Shown here piece by piece: positions 2,934 through 59,430 of a stretch of 64,000 nucleotides of DNA. Source of the DNA: Candidatus Poribacteria bacterium (GTDB lineage Bacteria > Poribacteria > WGA-4E > WGA-3G); NCBI GenBank assembly GCA_026710795.1, contig JAPOQK010000009.1, positions 1 through 64,000 on the forward strand. Direction: 5' to 3'. Made by a program: the position numbers and the translations under genes. The notes under the pieces are model-generated. The model saw only the letters and a list, made by a program, of their open reading frames with translations, was not told where the DNA came from and made no database searches. Each line of letters begins with the position of its first letter. The first letter of the stretch is position 1.

Positions 2934-5900
2934 TTACACTTGTTCAACGCTAAGTGTTGCAGGCTCTCCGTTGAGTTTTTGGTCAAGACTGAATGCTTTT
3001 TCACCAAGAGATTCTACTACTTCTGTTGTCAAGGTTTCAGCAAGGATATAATCTCGATGTGTATCAAACGCTTCCATTACAAGTTCTGATGATGTATTGA
3101 CACTGAGCTTAATCCTATCAGACACGTTAAAGTCTGCATCCTTCCGCATGTTTTGGATTTTGTTGACAAGTTCACGTGCCATACCTTCAAGCACTAACTC
3201 GTGCGTCAGTTCGGTTGACAATGCAACGAACTTTCTCGCATCTACCTCCACAAAAAATCCTTCGCGATTTTGTGTCTGCATGTCAATCTCTGATGTCTCA
3301 AGTGTATAGGTTTCACCTAATGCCTCAATCTGCAGACTTCCGTTCGCTTCCAATTCGGCTTTTAGCTGCATTGTATCTGCTGTCGCGAGTGCTTTTGCGA
3401 TTGCCTGTACACCTTTGCCATACTTCGGTCCCAAAACCTTGAAGTTCGGTTTGAGGGAAACTTGAGCAAATGTGTCTAATTTCTCTGTAAAGACGATTTC
3501 CTTAATATTCAACTCGTCGTGAACAAAAGATGCCATGCGATTGACGGTCTCCTTTTCTTCATCGGACAGTCCACCAAGTGTGATTTCAGCAAGCGGTTGG
3601 CGCGTTTTGATTCCTGAGCGATTTCGTGCTGCGTGTCCCATGCTAATAACCTCGCGTGTAAATGCCATATCTCTTTCTAATACTGAATCTATGAGTTCTG
3701 AATCTGCGACTGGGTATTCTGCAAGATGAACACTGAGTGGTGCATCTGGGGCAAGTGAACCGACTAAGTTTCGATAAAGTTCGTCGGACAAAAACGGTAT
3801 GAACATTGCGGCGAGTTTTGCAACGGTAACAAGCACTTCATATAACGTGGCATATGCAGCCTGCTTGTCCTGTCCTGCCTCTGCACCCCAAAAGCGGTCG
3901 CGAGAACGGCGGACATACCAGTTGCTAAGGTCATCCACAAAAGATTCAATGGCACGAGGTGCATTCGTGAGGTGATAGTTTTCCATGTCGTCGCGTACCT
4001 TGTTAATCAAGGTATGTAAGCGCGACAGAATCCAGGTATCTAAGATTGCGCGTTCCGCTACCGGTGGGGCATCTTCCAAGACATCAACCTGTTCCAAGTT
4101 AGCATACATTACGAAAAAACTATATACATTTTGAAGCGTTCCCATAAACTTCTTCAATGCTTCATCAACACCTTCAATCTGGAAAGTAAGCTGTGTCCAT
4201 GGTGGTGATGCTGTGAATAGATACCAGCGTACTGCATCTGCCCCCTGTTCGTTCAATATCGTCCACGGGTCAACTGTATTGCCACGACTTTTGCTCATCT
4301 TTGATCCATCAGAAGCGAGGATCAGTTCAAGACAGAGGCAGTTTTTGTATGCAGGTTTATCGTAAAGCAGAGTGCCTGTTGCTAATAGGCTATAGAACCA
4401 TCCACGGGTTTGGTCAATCGCCTCTGAGATGAAATCTACGGGATAAGAACGTTCAAAAAGTTCTTTGTTCTCAAATGGATAGTGCCATTGTGCGGTGTGT
4501 GCGCAACCTGAGTCGAACCAGCAGTCAATGACATCCTGTACGCGATGCATCGTTCCACTACATTTCTCACAGGTTAGGATTACATCATCAACGTAAGGTC
4601 GGTGTAATTCAATATCGTCCGGTACATCTTTACCGATTTCCTTCAATTCGGCAATACTACCGACACAGTGTTGATGTCCACAATCGTCACATATCCAGAC
4701 AGGTAGTGGTGTTCCCCAGTAGCGTTCACGACTCAATCCCCAATCAATGTTATTTTCCAGCCAATTGCCGAACCTACCATCTTTGATATGTTCGGGATAC
4801 CAGTTGATTTCTTGATTGTGTTGCTGCATCTGGTCTCGGATGGCAGTTGTACGGATAAACCACGATTCGCGCGCATAATAGAGGAGTGGATTGTCGCATC
4901 GCCAACAGAACGGGTATTGGTGTGTATATTCAGTAGCCTTGAACAGTAAGCCACGTTCGTCCAAGTTCTCTATGATCATCGGATCAGCGTCTTTGACGTA
5001 TTCACCTGCCCACACGTCCTTTACATCGGGAACAAATTTACCATCATCACCTACCAATTGTACAAATGGCAGATTGTGTTTCTGTCCAATATCGTAGTCA
5101 TCTTGTCCGAATGCGGGAGCGATGTGGACTAATCCACTACCTTCTGTGGTTGTTACGAAATCAGCTGTGACGATGTAGTGAGACTTTTCATCATGTTGTC
5201 CACTGTCAAACAACGGTTCGTATTCCCACTTGCGGAGGTCAGTGCCTTTGTAACTTTCAATGATTTCTGGAGGTGCATCGTCAAATAAACTTGATATACA
5301 TTCCTTTGCGAGGATGAGTTTTTGTCCGTTATCTTCTACGGCGACGTAATCGTAATCTTCACCGACAGCCACCGCTAAGTTAGATGGGAGTGTCCACGGG
5401 GTCGTTGTCCAGACAAGTAGATAGGTATTTTCTTTATTCTTCAATGGAAAGCGGACAAAGATTGATGGGTCAGCTACTTCCTGATAACCGAGTGCGACTT
5501 CATGACTTGCTAAGGTTGTACCACAGCGATAGCAATATGGTTGCACCTTATGTCCTTGATACAGTAGTTTCTTATCCCATGCTTGTCGTAGAACCCACCA
5601 TACGCTTTCGATATAATCGTTTGACAATGTGATGTATGCTTCATCTAAGTTGACCCAGAATCCGATACGTTCAGTCATCTCGCGCCAATCCTGTTCGTAT
5701 TGGAAAACATTTTCCTTGCATTTTTCAATGAAGTTCTGAACTCCGTAAGCCTCTAATTCTGCTTTATTCGTGATATTCAGTTGTTTCTCAACCTGATATT
5801 CGACGGGAAGTCCGTGTGTGTCCCAACCTGCTTTTCTGTGGACATAATGTCCTGTCATCGTCTTATATCGGCAAACGGCATCCTTCATGATGCGTGCGAG

Positions 5901-6077
5901 GACGTGATGCACGCCGGGTGGTGCATTTGCAAACGGCGGACCCTCAAGAAAAACGAAGGGTGGCGCGTCTTTGTGCATGTCCATGCTTTTCTGAAAGATG
6001 TTGTTTTCACGCCAGAACGTGAGTGTCTGTTTTTCTTTTTCAGCGAAGGTGAATTGCGGTGATACCTCTTCAAACAT
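2934..6077 (-). CDS. ileS: Isoleucyl-tRNA synthetase, type 2 (IleRS2) with GxHH motif
   Basis: A 1047-residue class I synthetase that charges tRNA-Ile. N-terminal catalytic residues include the start of the Rossmann fold (FVFLEGPPFANAPPG) and GVHH at residues 55-58 in place of the usual HIGH. KMSKS is present near residue 590 (SDGSKMSKSRGN), zinc-ribbon-like cysteine pairs lie near CRCDNP, CDDCGH and CEKCSG, and an editing insertion lies between. Length and motif fit the bacterial type-2 group related to eukaryotic cytosolic enzymes. In that group a swapped HxGH-to-GxHH signature has been reported to give extreme mupirocin resistance, so resistance is an inference here. AGGAGG precedes the ATG. 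Expression appears to be controlled by the attenuator at 6140-6415. Confidence 0.97.
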   Translation of the reverse strand: MFEEVSPQFTFAEKEKQTLTFWRENNIFQKSMDMHKDAPPFVFLEGPPFANAPPGVHHVLARIMKDAVCRYKTMTGHYVHRKAGWDTHGLPVEYQVEKQLNITNKAELEAYGVQNFIEKCKENVFQYEQDWREMTERIGFWVNLDEAYITLSNDYIESVWWVLRQAWDKKLLYQGHKVQPYCYRCGTTLASHEVALGYQEVADPSIFVRFPLKNKENTYLLVWTTTPWTLPSNLAVAVGEDYDYVAVEDNGQKLILAKECISSLFDDAPPEIIESYKGTDLRKWEYEPLFDSGQHDEKSHYIVTADFVTTTEGSGLVHIAPAFGQDDYDIGQKHNLPFVQLVGDDGKFVPDVKDVWAGEYVKDADPMIIENLDERGLLFKATEYTHQYPFCWRCDNPLLYYARESWFIRTTAIRDQMQQHNQEINWYPEHIKDGRFGNWLENNIDWGLSRERYWGTPLPVWICDDCGHQHCVGSIAELKEIGKDVPDDIELHRPYVDDVILTCEKCSGTMHRVQDVIDCWFDSGCAHTAQWHYPFENKELFERSYPVDFISEAIDQTRGWFYSLLATGTLLYDKPAYKNCLCLELILASDGSKMSKSRGNTVDPWTILNEQGADAVRWYLFTASPPWTQLTFQIEGVDEALKKFMGTLQNVYSFFVMYANLEQVDVLEDAPPVAERAILDTWILSRLHTLINKVRDDMENYHLTNAPRAIESFVDDLSNWYVRRSRDRFWGAEAGQDKQAAYATLYEVLVTVAKLAAMFIPFLSDELYRNLVGSLAPDAPLSVHLAEYPVADSELIDSVLERDMAFTREVISMGHAARNRSGIKTRQPLAEITLGGLSDEEKETVNRMASFVHDELNIKEIVFTEKLDTFAQVSLKPNFKVLGPKYGKGVQAIAKALATADTMQLKAELEANGSLQIEALGETYTLETSEIDMQTQNREGFFVEVDARKFVALSTELTHELVLEGMARELVNKIQNMRKDADFNVSDRIKLSVNTSSELVMEAFDTHRDYILAETLTTEVVESLGEKAFSLDQKLNGEPATLSVEQV

Positions 6078-6139
6078 TTTAAACTATTAGCCTCCTGACT
6101 GTTTGGTCCGTTGTCCGATACGGTTATCTGGTAAATTCG

Positions 6140-6189
6140 TTAAAAAAGAAAACACCCTCACCGATATGTATGTTTCAGTGATGGGCGTT
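6140..6189 (-). terminator. Intrinsic terminator (attenuator) in the ileS leader
   Basis: Read on the minus strand, AACGCCCATCACTG (6189-6176) pairs with CGGTGAGGGTGTT (6163-6151) to give a 13-bp stem with one bulged A and a 12-nt loop, followed at once by TTCTTTTTTAA (6150-6140). It lies about 63 nt upstream of the ileS start codon and downstream of the leader peptide. In that position it would stop ileS transcription rather than end an upstream gene. Confidence 0.85.
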
Positions 6190-6228
6190 CTAATAGTATT
6201 TCTTATCTGCTTGCGGTTAGCCCACCAC
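6178..6228 (-). promoter_or_regulatory. Antiterminator of the ileS leader
   Basis: GTGGTGGGC (minus strand, 6228-6220) is complementary over nine contiguous pairs, with one G-U, to GCCCATCAC (6186-6178). GCCCATCAC is the 5' half of the terminator stem, so the two structures exclude each other. The first segment overlaps the last codons of the leader peptide (Val-Val-Gly-stop), where a ribosome reaching the stop codon would cover it. Confidence 0.75.
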
Positions 6229-6336
6229 AGCACGACGAATTGCTATAATAATATGTATGGCGCGATGGGAGTCTTGGTGTAGGTCGGTGTGGTGCGCAGA
6301 CTTTTTGTATTGTGATCTCAGTGATTGATAAAACAT
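6217..6336 (-). CDS. 39-residue Ile-rich leader peptide of ileS
   Basis: A short reading frame opens with ATG at 6336-6334, with an AGGA ribosome binding site seven bases upstream, and closes with TAA at 6219-6217. Residues 27-33 read IHIIIAI: five Ile codons in seven (ATA, ATT, ATT, ATA, ATT), followed by RRAVVG and the stop. It lies between a consensus-like promoter and a terminator/antiterminator pair in front of ileS. By analogy with leader peptides of amino-acid operons and of E. coli pheST, ribosome stalling at the Ile codons when charged tRNA-Ile is scarce should favour the antiterminator and let ileS be transcribed. The frame is too short for routine gene calling, so it would normally be missed. 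Confidence 0.8.
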   Translation of the reverse strand: MFYQSLRSQYKKSAHHTDLHQDSHRAIHIIIAIRRAVVG

Positions 6337-6386
6337 CCGAAAATCCTGTTGAATACATACGTGGTTAGCGTTTTGAGTTCGTTAAA

Positions 6387-6415
6387 ATGATACTACATGC
6401 TACTGTGGATGTCAA
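6387..6415 (-). promoter_or_regulatory. Sigma70-type promoter of the ileS leader
   Basis: On the minus strand TTGACA (6415-6410) and TATCAT (6392-6387) are separated by exactly 17 bases. Transcription would start near 6380, about 45 nt before the leader peptide ATG. A separate rightward TATAAT at 6448-6453 probably belongs to the divergent protease gene. Confidence 0.8.
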
Positions 6416-6477
6416 ATCTTTTTGGATGTGAATTCTGAGATATGGTGTATAATGTATATATTTGGAGGAACACTTTT

Positions 6478-7944
6478 ATGGAACAGGAATGGGATGAGAC
6501 ACTACAGCAAATTGCTGAAAGTGCATTAACTAATTCTGTTGTGCATTTGGATGTAGGAAGAGGAATTCCGCTTTTATCGTTACGTCCTCAATATACTATA
6601 TCCAAAGTAACTTCAAGCGGTGGAAGTGGATTTTTTATAGAAGAGCACTTGATAGTGACGAACTGTCATGTCATCTTAGGGGCGACATCTGTATCAATTG
6701 AACTTTCAAATACAGAAGACACATTTCATATTGAGAGTGTTAAGTCGTGGGACTTTGATAATGACTTAATTGTTCTCAAGGTAACTAAGAAGGGTACACC
6801 ACTCAAACTTGGGGATAGTGACAGGATAGCAAACAAGGATTTAATTTGTGCTGCGGGTTACCCTAAAGGCAATCCTGATATTACACACGGCACCATTGAT
6901 GGAATCCAAACAAAGGATAATCGGCTCCGAATGAAAATCGGTACAGCCAGGGGCAGCAGCGGTTGTCCTATAATGAATAGAAAGGGTGAGGTGATAGGGA
7001 TTGATACCTCATCGGACAAGACCTACAGTTACGCTATTCCTTCAAATACTTTAAAATCACTAATCAGAAAGACTGGAGAATCACTACCTTTCAAGGAGTG
7101 GCAAGAACTTCCACATATACGTGCCTATTATGCAACTGATGTAGCTGATGATATGTTGGAAAAGGGAGAATTTAAGGAGGCAGTTACGTATTATGATATA
7201 GCGATTGAGTTAAAACCTGATATAGCTGCTGCATACAAAGGATGCGCAGTCGCAAGGATGGGACTGGGAATGTTCCGTCGGGCAATGGAAGATTATCTCA
7301 CTTGTCGAAAACTCAATCCAAAGTCATTAAGAGGGTCCGGTTTTTGGTCATATTTAACTTGGAAGTGGGTAGGGTTTTGGATTATAGTTGGACATTTCCT
7401 CATCAAGTTGCTGAAGAAATTTATTAGTGAAAGTAGTTGGTATAGATTCAGAGGAATTGGTAAGTCTGCCTTTGCAAAATCTGCAACGAAAGATGGGGAA
7501 CATTCCAAAGCCAGAATGCTATTTAAAGAAGCAATAAGTGACTTTTCTGAGGCTATTAATCTTGAACCAGAGAAGTCAAAAATCTATAATAGTCGTGGGT
7601 GGACAAAGTATCTACTTGGAAAAGTTGAAACTGATCAAGAAAATGAAGAAGAAGCGAAAAAACTATATCAAGAAGCAGTATCGGACAGTGATATGGCACT
7701 CCAGTTAGAGTTAAAGAAGCCAAAATATAGGTCTGCCTTTTTTCACACCCGTGGTGTTGCTAAGGCAGGATTAGGTGACCACTGTGGTGCCATTGAAGAC
7801 TTTGATGTATCCATCAAGTTATATTCAGAAAAAGCATTATATTTTCATGATCGTGGACTTTCAAAAGAAGCACTTGGACAGCAAGAAGCAGCAGAAATTG
7901 ACTTTTCAAAGGCAAAGGGATTAGATCCAAAAATCAAGAGATAA
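6478..7944 (+). CDS. Trypsin-like serine protease with TPR repeats and a membrane segment (copy 1)
   Basis: The start is placed at 6478: GGAGGA lies at 6464-6469 and the N-terminus MEQEWDETLQQIAES then matches the adjacent paralogue. An in-frame upstream ATG at 6442 precedes the ribosome binding site. The 488-residue protein has an S1C-like trypsin fold in residues about 20-210 with His64 (TNCHV), Asp96 (NDLIVL) and Ser161 (GSSGCP). A TPR pair follows (about 220-285), then one hydrophobic segment (WVGFWIIVGHFLIKLL), then further TPRs to the end. There is no signal peptide, so the protease domain is probably cytoplasmic or membrane-tethered. Domain order suggests a sensor/effector-type protease using TPRs to bind a partner; the substrate is unknown. 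It is followed after 24 bp by its paralogue. Confidence 0.82.
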   Translation: MEQEWDETLQQIAESALTNSVVHLDVGRGIPLLSLRPQYTISKVTSSGGSGFFIEEHLIVTNCHVILGATSVSIELSNTEDTFHIESVKSWDFDNDLIVLKVTKKGTPLKLGDSDRIANKDLICAAGYPKGNPDITHGTIDGIQTKDNRLRMKIGTARGSSGCPIMNRKGEVIGIDTSSDKTYSYAIPSNTLKSLIRKTGESLPFKEWQELPHIRAYYATDVADDMLEKGEFKEAVTYYDIAIELKPDIAAAYKGCAVARMGLGMFRRAMEDYLTCRKLNPKSLRGSGFWSYLTWKWVGFWIIVGHFLIKLLKKFISESSWYRFRGIGKSAFAKSATKDGEHSKARMLFKEAISDFSEAINLEPEKSKIYNSRGWTKYLLGKVETDQENEEEAKKLYQEAVSDSDMALQLELKKPKYRSAFFHTRGVAKAGLGDHCGAIEDFDVSIKLYSEKALYFHDRGLSKEALGQQEAAEIDFSKAKGLDPKIKR

Positions 7945-7968: not shown

Positions 7969-9501
7969 ATGGAACAGGAAAAAGATGAAACACTAAAGCA
8001 AATTGCTGAAAGTGCCTTAGCTAATTCTGTTGTCCGTTTAGAGCTTTGGTCACCTACTTCGTATGAGGATTATGTTCAGTCTTTTGATGTGGAAAATCCT
8101 ACACTATACCTACAGAATGAAACTGCTGATTTTTCATCATACAAGACACATTCTATCATTGAAGAACATAAGAGTGGTGCAAGTGGTTTTTTCGTTGATA
8201 AGCACATGATAGTTACCAATTTTCACGTTGTACAGGGACGATCTTCTATTATCGCGGAACTTGAAGGAAGGCAAGAAGGATTTCAGATAGAATCAGTTGA
8301 AGCATACGACATTGAAAATGACCTGATTCTGTTAAAGGTTGCTGGTGAAGGAGTTCCGCTTACGCTTGGTGATAGTGCTGAGATTAAGGATGAGGATGCT
8401 ATATATGCTGTTGGTTATCCGAATGGAATTGCAGAAATTATACACGGTGATATTGATGGAATCCGGGTTAGTGATAATCGAATCCGTATGAGAATTGGTA
8501 CTACTGATGGTAGCAGTGGGAGTCCTATTTTCAATAGTCATGGGGACACAATAGGAGTTGATGCGTCTGGTGATGAAGTTTATAGTTATTCTATCCCATC
8601 TAATAAGTTAAGAGAATTAATCAATAAGACTAAAGAATCAATTCCATTAAGAGAGTGGCAGAAATTACCGCTTGTACGCGCATTTACCGAAACTAAGGAA
8701 GGTGATAAATTGCAGACAGAAGGTGCCCACAAAAAGGCAATCGCGCATTATGATACTGCAATTGAACTTAACCCGGAAATGATAAAAGCGTATGAAGGTC
8801 GCGCAGATTCAATGATGGAACTTTGGGCATTTGGCAGAGCAGCTGAGGATTTGATTACTTTTCGTCGTCTTGATCCAGTAACATTCAGTTTGTCCAATTT
8901 CCGGAAGTATGTTACATGGAAGCGTAAAGGTGTTTGGATTTGGGGTGGTTATCTTTTTATCTTGTTTCTGAGGACTGTATTCGGTAAATATGGATGGTTT
9001 AGATTTAGAGGACATGCAAAGATTGGTATTGCAAATTCAGAAGCGAAAAAAGGAAGCAAAACTAAGGCTAAAATGATTTATCAAGAGTCCATATATGACT
9101 TTACAGAGTACATTATTTTAAAACCGAAAGTTGCTGGACTCTATAACAGCCGTGGATGGGCAAAATACTTGTTAGGGGAACTTGAAACTAAAGAAGAAAA
9201 TGGACCGAAAGCACAAGAATTGTTTCAAGACGCGATATCTGACGCAGACTTAGCACTTCAGTTGACGACAAAGGATTCGAAACATAAGGCTGCATGTTTC
9301 CACACTCGCGGTGCTGCAAAGGCGGGGATCGGTGATCACGAGGGAGCAATCACTGATTTCAATGAATGTATCCGACTAAGACCGAAGAAGGCATTATACT
9401 ACCATGACCGTGGACTTTCAAAAGAAGCACTTGGACAACACGAAGCAGCGGAAGTGGACTTTGCTAAAGCGAAGGGATTAGATCCGAAAATAGAAAAGTA
9501 A
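7969..9501 (+). CDS. Trypsin-like serine protease with TPR repeats and a membrane segment (copy 2)
   Basis: A 510-residue tandem paralogue of the preceding gene, with the same order: trypsin-like domain, TPRs, one hydrophobic segment (GVWIWGGYLFILFL), TPRs. The triad is His86 (TNFHV), Asp118 (NDLILL) and Ser183 (GSSGSP). It carries an extra 20-25 residues before the catalytic His compared with copy 1 (around DYVQSFDVENPTLYL). The C-terminal repeats are nearly identical in both (LSKEALGQ.EAAE.DF.KAKGLDPKI). A weak AAAGGA lies upstream and the 24-bp gap suggests co-transcription. Both copies keep all catalytic residues, so neither looks decayed. Confidence 0.82.
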   Translation: MEQEKDETLKQIAESALANSVVRLELWSPTSYEDYVQSFDVENPTLYLQNETADFSSYKTHSIIEEHKSGASGFFVDKHMIVTNFHVVQGRSSIIAELEGRQEGFQIESVEAYDIENDLILLKVAGEGVPLTLGDSAEIKDEDAIYAVGYPNGIAEIIHGDIDGIRVSDNRIRMRIGTTDGSSGSPIFNSHGDTIGVDASGDEVYSYSIPSNKLRELINKTKESIPLREWQKLPLVRAFTETKEGDKLQTEGAHKKAIAHYDTAIELNPEMIKAYEGRADSMMELWAFGRAAEDLITFRRLDPVTFSLSNFRKYVTWKRKGVWIWGGYLFILFLRTVFGKYGWFRFRGHAKIGIANSEAKKGSKTKAKMIYQESIYDFTEYIILKPKVAGLYNSRGWAKYLLGELETKEENGPKAQELFQDAISDADLALQLTTKDSKHKAACFHTRGAAKAGIGDHEGAITDFNECIRLRPKKALYYHDRGLSKEALGQHEAAEVDFAKAKGLDPKIEK

Positions 9502-40751: not shown

Positions 40752-40850
40752 CGGTGTAAATAGTAACTGAATTTATGCTTCTGTGTTTATGAATACATTA
40801 TGTTGCAGTTGATTTCTCTTCATTATCCAATAAATTGGTTGTATGATAAA

Positions 40851-41194
40851 CTTGAGTTGAGAATAAGCCGGATTCTGTATATGATGATCATTCATCTGGG
40901 ATCAATGTTTCCATTAACCTCAAGCGGTTACCCGGAGACGAGGCGGACACACCTTTAAATGTCTCCATTTTACCTTGCTCCAAACGGGGTTTACCGAGCT
41001 CCATAAGTCACCTTATGGACTGGTGCGCTTTTACCGCACCGTTTCACCTTTACAACGTTGTTGGACGTTGTAGTCTACTTTCTGTTGCACTTTCCATAGC
41101 GTTGCCGCTCCTGGGGGTTACCCAGCATCCTGCCCTGCGGAGTCCGGACTTTCCTCATCTCATTTTGAGACGCGATCACCTACTCAACTCAAGT
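40851..41194 (-). ncRNA. rnpB: RNase P RNA (class A)
   Basis: The minus strand has the universal 5' core GAGGAAAGTCCGGACTCC (CR-I/P4 region), ACAGAAA, GGTAAACCCC and the 3' core AGAATCCGGCTTAT. The ends ACTTGAGTTGA (41194-41184) and TCAACTCAAG (40860-40851) pair to form P1, which sets the boundaries at about 344 nt. It matures the 5' ends of tRNAs. It lies between the DUF1592 gene and nrdJ, all leftward. Confidence 0.95.
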
Positions 41195-58888: not shown

Positions 58889-58974
58889 TGGGCGAGGAGG
58901 GACTTGAACCCTCACGAGGCGTAACCCCAATAGATCCTAAGTCTATCCTGTCTACCAAATTCCAGCACCCGCCC
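58889..58974 (-). tRNA. tRNA-Leu(UAG)
   Basis: A class II tRNA with a long variable arm. The anticodon loop is CTTAGGA within ATAGA/TCTAT and the acceptor is GGGCGGG/CTCGCCC with discriminator A. The 3' CCA is not encoded. Last tRNA of the array, 146 bp before tig. Confidence 0.93.
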
Positions 58975-59034
58975 TTTTTTCTAACCCTATAAAGAGAAAC
59001 AGTAATACGGGCATCCGTTCTATGTTAGAACCGA

Positions 59035-59107
59035 TGCGCCGTGAAGGAATCGAACCTTCAACCCTCTGATTAAGAGTCAGATGCTCTGCCAATTGAGCTA
59101 ACGGCGC
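59035..59107 (-). tRNA. tRNA-Lys(CUU)
   Basis: Anticodon loop CTCTTAA within TCTGA/TCAGA; acceptor GCGCCGT/ACGGCGC, discriminator A. Only one base separates its 5' end from the 3' end of the preceding tRNA-Arg(UCG). Confidence 0.95.
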
Positions 59108-59108
59108 A

Positions 59109-59181
59109 CGCGTCCGGAGGGATTCGAACCCCCAACTTATAGCTCCGAAGGCTATTGCTCTATCCATTGAACTACGGACGC
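59109..59181 (-). tRNA. tRNA-Arg(UCG)
   Basis: Anticodon loop CTTCGGA within ATAGC/GCTAT; acceptor GCGTCCG/CGGACGC, discriminator G. Confidence 0.94.
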
Positions 59182-59189
59182 ATACGAAA

Positions 59190-59262
59190 GGTGGATGATG
59201 GGATTTGAACCCACGACCTCCTGATCCACAGTCAGGCGCTCTACCCCTGAGCTACATCCACC
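59190..59262 (-). tRNA. tRNA-His(GUG)
   Basis: Anticodon loop CTGTGGA within CCTGA/TCAGG; acceptor GTGGATG/CATCCAC. The encoded G at -1 faces discriminator C, the identity pair of tRNA-His. Confidence 0.95.
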
Positions 59263-59272
59263 ATATACAATA

Positions 59273-59346
59273 CACGCCTAGCAGGACTCGAACCTGCAAC
59301 CCACAGCTTAGAAGGCTGTTGCTCTATCCAATTGAGCTATAGGCGC
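59273..59346 (-). tRNA. tRNA-Arg(UCU)
   Basis: Anticodon loop CTTCTAA within ACAGC/GCTGT; acceptor GCGCCTA/TAGGCGT, with a G-U first pair and discriminator G. Confidence 0.94.
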
Positions 59347-59354
59347 ATGTGGAA

Positions 59355-59430
<76 letters not shown>

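Follow-up and report, generated by a model that had tools for sequence, protein, structure and literature searches.

The ileS gene in the DNA analyzed here, a 64-kb stretch from a Candidatus Poribacteria bacterium that we call the window, is very probably controlled by a ribosome-mediated transcription attenuator that senses charged tRNA-Ile. The parts of this element, their order and spacing, their conservation, and a segment that is used in full by both of two hairpins can be read directly from the sequence. An earlier note on this DNA had proposed that a ribosome stalled at Ile codons turns ileS on and that one reaching the stop codon turns it off; the conserved leader frame, Ile codons and pairings described below argue for that reading, as far as sequence comparison goes.

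Layout of the leader and predicted switch

All parts of the element lie on the minus strand. The promoter TTGACA-17-TATCAT proposed earlier was borne out at 6387..6415 (TTGACA 6415-6410, TATCAT 6392-6387, spacer 17), with 11 of 12 consensus matches. A leader frame, MFYQSLRSQYKKSAHHTDLHQDSHRAIHIIIAIRRAVVG, of 39 codons plus a stop (6217..6336; ATG at 6336, stop 6219-6217), which has related frames in relatives, sits between this promoter and an intrinsic terminator, and is preceded by the ribosome binding site AGGA (6347-6344). Re-reading of the strand recovered the length of the frame, its ribosome binding site and, as codons 27-33 (6238..6258), the control codons IHIIIAI, all as previously described. 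Region 2 (GTGGTGGGC, 6220..6228) spans the last three leader codons and forms the 5′ arm of the antiterminator; region 3 (GCCCATCAC, 6178..6186) is its complement, and the nine-base pairing of the two claimed in the earlier note was confirmed at 6228-6220 / 6186-6178. The last Ile codon ends 9 bases 5′ of region 2, and the stop codon lies directly 3′ of it. The terminator hairpin and its T run occupy about 6142..6190, and since region 3 is used entirely by both structures, antiterminator and terminator are mutually exclusive. Downstream follow the ribosome binding site AGGAGG (6091..6096) and ileS itself (2934..6077), encoding 1047 aa that match TIGR00392 at 969.6 bits against a cut-off of 621.4. 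On the other side, divergent from ileS, are two adjacent related genes (6442-7944 and 7969-9501), which by eye resemble a trypsin-like protease domain fused to repeats. The minus strand of the window also carries a Class A RNase P RNA (40849-41191) and a group of six tRNA genes (58889-59430).

The trp/phe attenuation model is well established, and a ribosome usually covers about 9 bases past its A-site codon. By analogy with that model and footprint, in-cell stalling, masking and termination at this element would run as follows. The ribosome would trail RNA polymerase along the leader and, when Ile-tRNA is short, would stall at the Ile codons and leave region 2 free to pair with region 3, so that no terminator forms and transcription runs on into ileS. 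With plentiful Ile-tRNA it would move on to the stop codon directly after region 2 and cover that region; region 3 would then pair with the downstream arm, leading to termination in the T run near 6142. The spacing fits this scheme, in that for the usual footprint region 2 is free with a ribosome at the control codons and covered with one at the stop. The search for a trp-type protector 1:2 helix in the leader returned matches no better than those of codon shuffles. Such a helix is not universal among attenuators, and we did not treat its absence as decisive; because none was found, an untranslated leader should leave ileS on as well.

Folding predictions support the terminator in particular. 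Its energy of -20.2 kcal/mol compares with a shuffle mean of -7.12 (sd 2.33, z -5.61), and none of 200 shuffles was equally stable. The earlier note was right about a hairpin with a T run that reuses GCCCATCAC, but its stem of 13 bp has to be revised to a predicted 16 pairs with one bulged base, some of the pairs extending into the T run. A simple terminator scan of the window did not list this hairpin, probably because the predicted loop of 10 exceeds the limit of 8 set in the scan. The fold of the whole leader gains modestly over shuffles (z -1.76; 8 of 200 as stable). Across relatives (n = 51), the antiterminator helix has a median energy of -12.9 kcal/mol and the terminator one of -19.2 kcal/mol; the former being weaker, the switch must be kinetic. 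With the leader taken as covered to 10 bases past the stop, seven to nine of the nine region 3 bases are paired in the best fold.

We estimated how often such an arrangement occurs elsewhere using a signature script with three requirements: a stable terminator; 20-85 bases upstream of the 5′ side of the terminator, a 9-base arm with full complementarity; and an open frame that stops near this arm and has, within six codons whose end lies 3-30 bases ahead of it, three or more Ile. Over both strands of the 64-kb window, the full signature occurs at one place (listed twice, with two T-run anchors of the same hairpin), and in other phyla it was found at none of 51 ileS loci, which together cover 266,797 bases (in six of them, <600 bases lie upstream of ileS). 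The pattern GTGGTGGGY-N20-50-CCCATCAC has one match in the 4.70-Mb genome, and a reversed control has none. Within the same genome, the signature was not found at other class I synthetase genes or at ilvB, either by the script on those loci or by eye.

Conservation among relatives

The earlier note had named as its check an alignment with relatives, where conserved Ile codons with synonymous change and covariation in both stems would count in its favor. We searched 84 genomes of the phylum with the first 200 IleS residues, and 76 of them gave a match at E 1e-20 or better. Within the family of the window, ileS is found in 55 of 58 genomes, with two copies in one, giving 56 loci; as one contig (G055) starts inside ileS and lacks upstream DNA, 55 were assessed. 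Region 2, region 3 and the terminator stand in the same order before ileS at 52 of these 55, and in 51 of the 52 the stop codon follows region 2 directly; in L065 it is lost and the frame runs two codons on. In L005, also among the 52, the DNA breaks off upstream of region 2. The other 51 loci have visible codons, and in all of them the 13 codons that lead up to region 2 include four or more Ile (four in 10 loci, five in 33, six in 7 and seven in 1). Of 51 family loci, 49 have a TTGACA + TA(T/A)NNT pair 5′ of region 2, at a greater distance in one of them (L042), and of the 52 family loci numbered L002-L053 the signature script recovers 48. The comparison thus bears out the note: relatives keep the leader frame and the Ile codons as well as both pairings.

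Between these loci, the Ile tract differs in length by whole codons, and the spacer that follows the stop does so by single bases (27-32 nt). Of the variable cells in the last eight codons, 11 fall on the first codon position, 12 on the second and 39 on the third, a bias to third positions of the kind expected from synonymous change; the true frame gives 34 synonymous and 22 non-synonymous cells there, compared with 9/46 and 5/48 in the shifted frames. Leader pN/pS is 0.28 over the last 11 codons and 0.78 overall, shifted frames giving 0.78 and 0.72; upstream of the tail it is 0.83, which indicates no constraint on the peptide beyond that of the shifted frames. The leader end AIRRAVVG is nearly invariant across the family. 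Another well conserved stretch, about GCAGATAAG, lies in the spacer between the stop and region 3 (window 6187-6216; alignment A2 columns 37-69) and is explained by neither hairpin; a polymerase pause site is one idea. From the T run to ileS the distance is 13-623 nt (n = 51 family loci), often of repeat-like sequence, while the attenuator itself keeps a constant length.

Several loci depart from the common arrangement or complete it. One genome (G015) has the element at both of its ileS copies (L031, L044). The three assessed family loci outside the 52 are L016, L066 and L051. L016 lies near a contig edge, with the whole element on another contig of the same genome (L211), and the element of L066 is split across two contig ends (L066, L210). 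In the named genome (L085), region 2, region 3 and the terminator are kept and the Ile stretch is reduced to NIAIRR, with two Ile codons. L051 (G019) has no leader and a TTGACA promoter close before ileS, and at L157 (G065), which belongs to one of the more distant families, the leader is lost, with a TTGACA element shortly before ileS; these two are natural losses of the switch.

Pairing of regions 2 and 3 is nearly complete in the family, with standard pairs in 99.8% of 459 cells, and falls to 33-66% when the partner is slid by 1-3 columns. Covariation is weak inside the family because the stems hardly vary: two cells change on both sides (C-G to U-A, in L044 and L046), the covariation score is reached by 24 of 500 shuffles, and the inner terminator stem is 100% paired with zero two-sided changes. 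When 13 distant loci were added (n = 65), two of the nine pairs changed on both sides, in 13 cells (shuffle mean 2.4; none of 1000 as many), although this test between families leans towards pairing, the distant arms having been picked as best complements. With the 14 distinct arm pairs only, six two-sided cells were seen, and 2 of 1000 shuffles had as many. The covariation that the earlier note looked for is therefore found mostly between families, and within the family it remains weak.

For seven other families, the DNA upstream of 20 loci was read as well, and the strict signature script accepted eight of these loci. Ile runs precede region 2 in five of the seven: in f3 (L054, with region 2 pairing over 8 of 9 bases; L055, whose frame has no standard start codon; and L056), in f4 (L154, L155, L156 and L158), in f2 (L160, with the stop just before region 2, and, weaker, L159), in f7 (L161) and in f9 (L064). 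At L055, L056, L154, L155, L156, L158 and L161, the leader frame runs through region 2 in a different register (GGT GGG within the arm, not GTG GGC), which argues that its sequence is kept for pairing rather than for the peptide; as this holds at most loci of three families, arm and Ile codons are kept for separate reasons. L153 has the terminator and lacks region 2. Two families show other leaders: f6 (L057, L058) keeps the hairpins, and its leader abounds in Phe, Tyr and Trp and lacks an Ile run; in f5 (L059-L063) a terminator is present, the arms are weaker, and the leaders are mixed Ile/Leu, with few Ile and no clear run.

A second copy, the enzyme and competing readings

A covariance model of the family element was run over the 84 genomes, with stricter filters that may lose weak matches. 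In 30 of the 38 genomes of genus g2 it found, besides the ileS element, a weaker second place; the window's own genome has a single copy. Among 20 of these second places (L187-L206), 19 have a related leader (e.g. MFYLSLTTLIHENCLCTFIGLGIVLIGISMCRAEVGL). An Ile run is absent from all of these, and seven to nine of the nine bases of regions 2 and 3 pair. The gene downstream, as seen in L187, is an open frame of 735 residues that matches CBM9_1 and DUF5916 (the family match was made in L187 only), and by eye the gene starts look alike in most of 18 second-place loci.

The enzyme behind the leader also differs between families. The IleS of L207 (f4) passes TIGR00392 too (699.6 bits) and, like that of the window, has GVHH at the usual HIGH position; at the usual KMSKS position it has MHKS. 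A 2023 paper deals with IleRS with a GXHH motif and mupirocin hyper-resistance (PMC10485003). L207 is 77% identical to the partial f7 enzyme L208 and 41% identical to the window IleS; its identity to the latter is 36-37% over residues 1-680 and 54-62% over 680-1047. These values, low in the first part and higher in the second, do not show that the enzyme was replaced as a whole while the leader stayed the same; such unevenness makes divergence or recombination as likely as replacement. Tentatively, the attenuator may be an old portable cassette of the phylum that stayed with ileS through divergence or exchange of the catalytic part of the enzyme (f2, f4, f7) and was copied in g2 to the CBM9/DUF5916 gene, where its control codons changed, an account that we hold possible but doubtful. 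If it is true, a ribosome-sensing switch of a tRNA synthetase was re-targeted to a gene with no relation to it.

Similar hairpins that lack an Ile run, as in the f5 and f6 leaders and in the copy at the DUF5916 gene, are what speaks for a leader that senses slow translation in general, or several tRNAs, rather than isoleucine specifically. We consider this very unlikely, given that each of the 51 family loci whose codons are visible keeps Ile, that five distant families keep it with their other leader residues differing, and that the gene under control is ileS. The near-invariance of AIRRAVVG could likewise point to an arrest peptide whose conserved end acts on the ribosome, the Ile codons being incidental. 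However, the matching residues differ elsewhere (IPRDGGLM, IIRLLQTMVG), partly with the other frame of region 2, while the Ile codons persist, so that this explanation is very unlikely. An ordinary terminator, with an ileS promoter downstream of the hairpin and a fortuitous leader frame, is extremely improbable: the 13-623 nt between T run and ileS in relatives could hold promoters, but in the window the minus strand has no promoter-like site from the terminator to ileS, the divergent upstream gene leaves the terminator no other gene to end, and leader frame and pairing are conserved.

T-boxes, known systems and significance

Known RNA control of ileS is usually by a T-box. A T-box stands directly before ileS in 17 of the 51 loci of other phyla (an 18th, L120, has one 1.8 kb away), and the ilvB gene of the window's own genome has a T-box-like leader (L171:1085-1361; 90.8 bits, E 7.8e-19, slightly below the gathering score of 93); control of ileS by a T-box or another ligand-binding leader RNA nevertheless has next to no probability, since neither the T-box (RF00230) nor any other Rfam element matches at the window ileS at gathering level, nor at L002 up to E 0.05. 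The upstream stretches of 15 relatives gave no Rfam element at gathering level, and eight upstream loci searched up to E 0.05 gave no T-box at ileS; L055 has a sub-threshold Thr_leader match (32 bits vs 55). At four loci of the same genome taken as other class I synthetase genes, their exact identities being inferred (L163, L165, L166 and L167), there was no Rfam match at gathering level, nor for the first three up to E 0.05, and no leader was found by eye or by the signature script. On sequence evidence, ilvB and ileS of this genome seem to rely on different devices, the former on a T-box and the latter on a leader peptide.

Control by a leader-peptide attenuator of this kind has a well-known counterpart in E. 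coli pheST, a synthetase operon. As there, a synthetase gene stands behind a leader rich in cognate codons, with a terminator competing against an antiterminator; here the codons are for Ile instead of Phe, the phylum is another, and the protector helix was not found. PheST is given as an example in the available passages of PMC1262725, which also present predicted leuS and trpS attenuators in Streptomyces and T-boxes at ileS of Actinobacteria, and excerpts from PMC2965389 describe His leaders at hisS paralogues in bacilli. The ileS element shares with these cases the predicted leader-peptide attenuation of a synthetase outside the proteobacteria, but differs in amino acid and phylum, and Actinobacteria have T-boxes at ileS instead. 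Operons of ilv genes are known for Ile/Val leader peptides. Their sensor, like the one proposed here, consists of Ile codons, but they control biosynthesis genes, whereas here the peptide leader is at ileS and a T-box-like leader is at ilvB. In Caulobacter, the ilvBN leader has tandem Ile and Val codons, according to the passages available from PMC4117421.

The earlier note knew of no ileS case, which was too strong. A figure legend in PMC4117421 names, as a negative control, an 'ileS leader CDS' of Caulobacter crescentus (CCNA_03934), like the present leader a small translated frame before ileS. The available passages give no sequence, Ile codons, hairpins, regulation or mechanism for it. A 2010 paper on attenuation of synthetase operons (PMID 20198868) is cited in the available text of PMC4833913. 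No ileS attenuator of comparable kind was recognized in the passages obtained from the literature searched, most subscription journals lying outside its scope, and none of the matches listed joined Poribacteria with an attenuator, a leader peptide or a riboswitch. The kind of switch is known; gene and phylum appear to be new, though an earlier prediction for ileS is possible.

What the element would mean for these bacteria follows from its setting, an Ile-rich leader peptide before ileS in several families of an uncultured phylum, in which the window's own genome has a T-box-like leader at ilvB. It would be a natural case of two different sensors of tRNA charging within one amino-acid pathway, and a leader peptide as well as short RNAs, of a kind missed by gene finders, are predicted from it. 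Its more unusual sides are the record across much of the phylum and the possibly re-targeted copy; since another gene has a related copy, how such switches evolve becomes testable.
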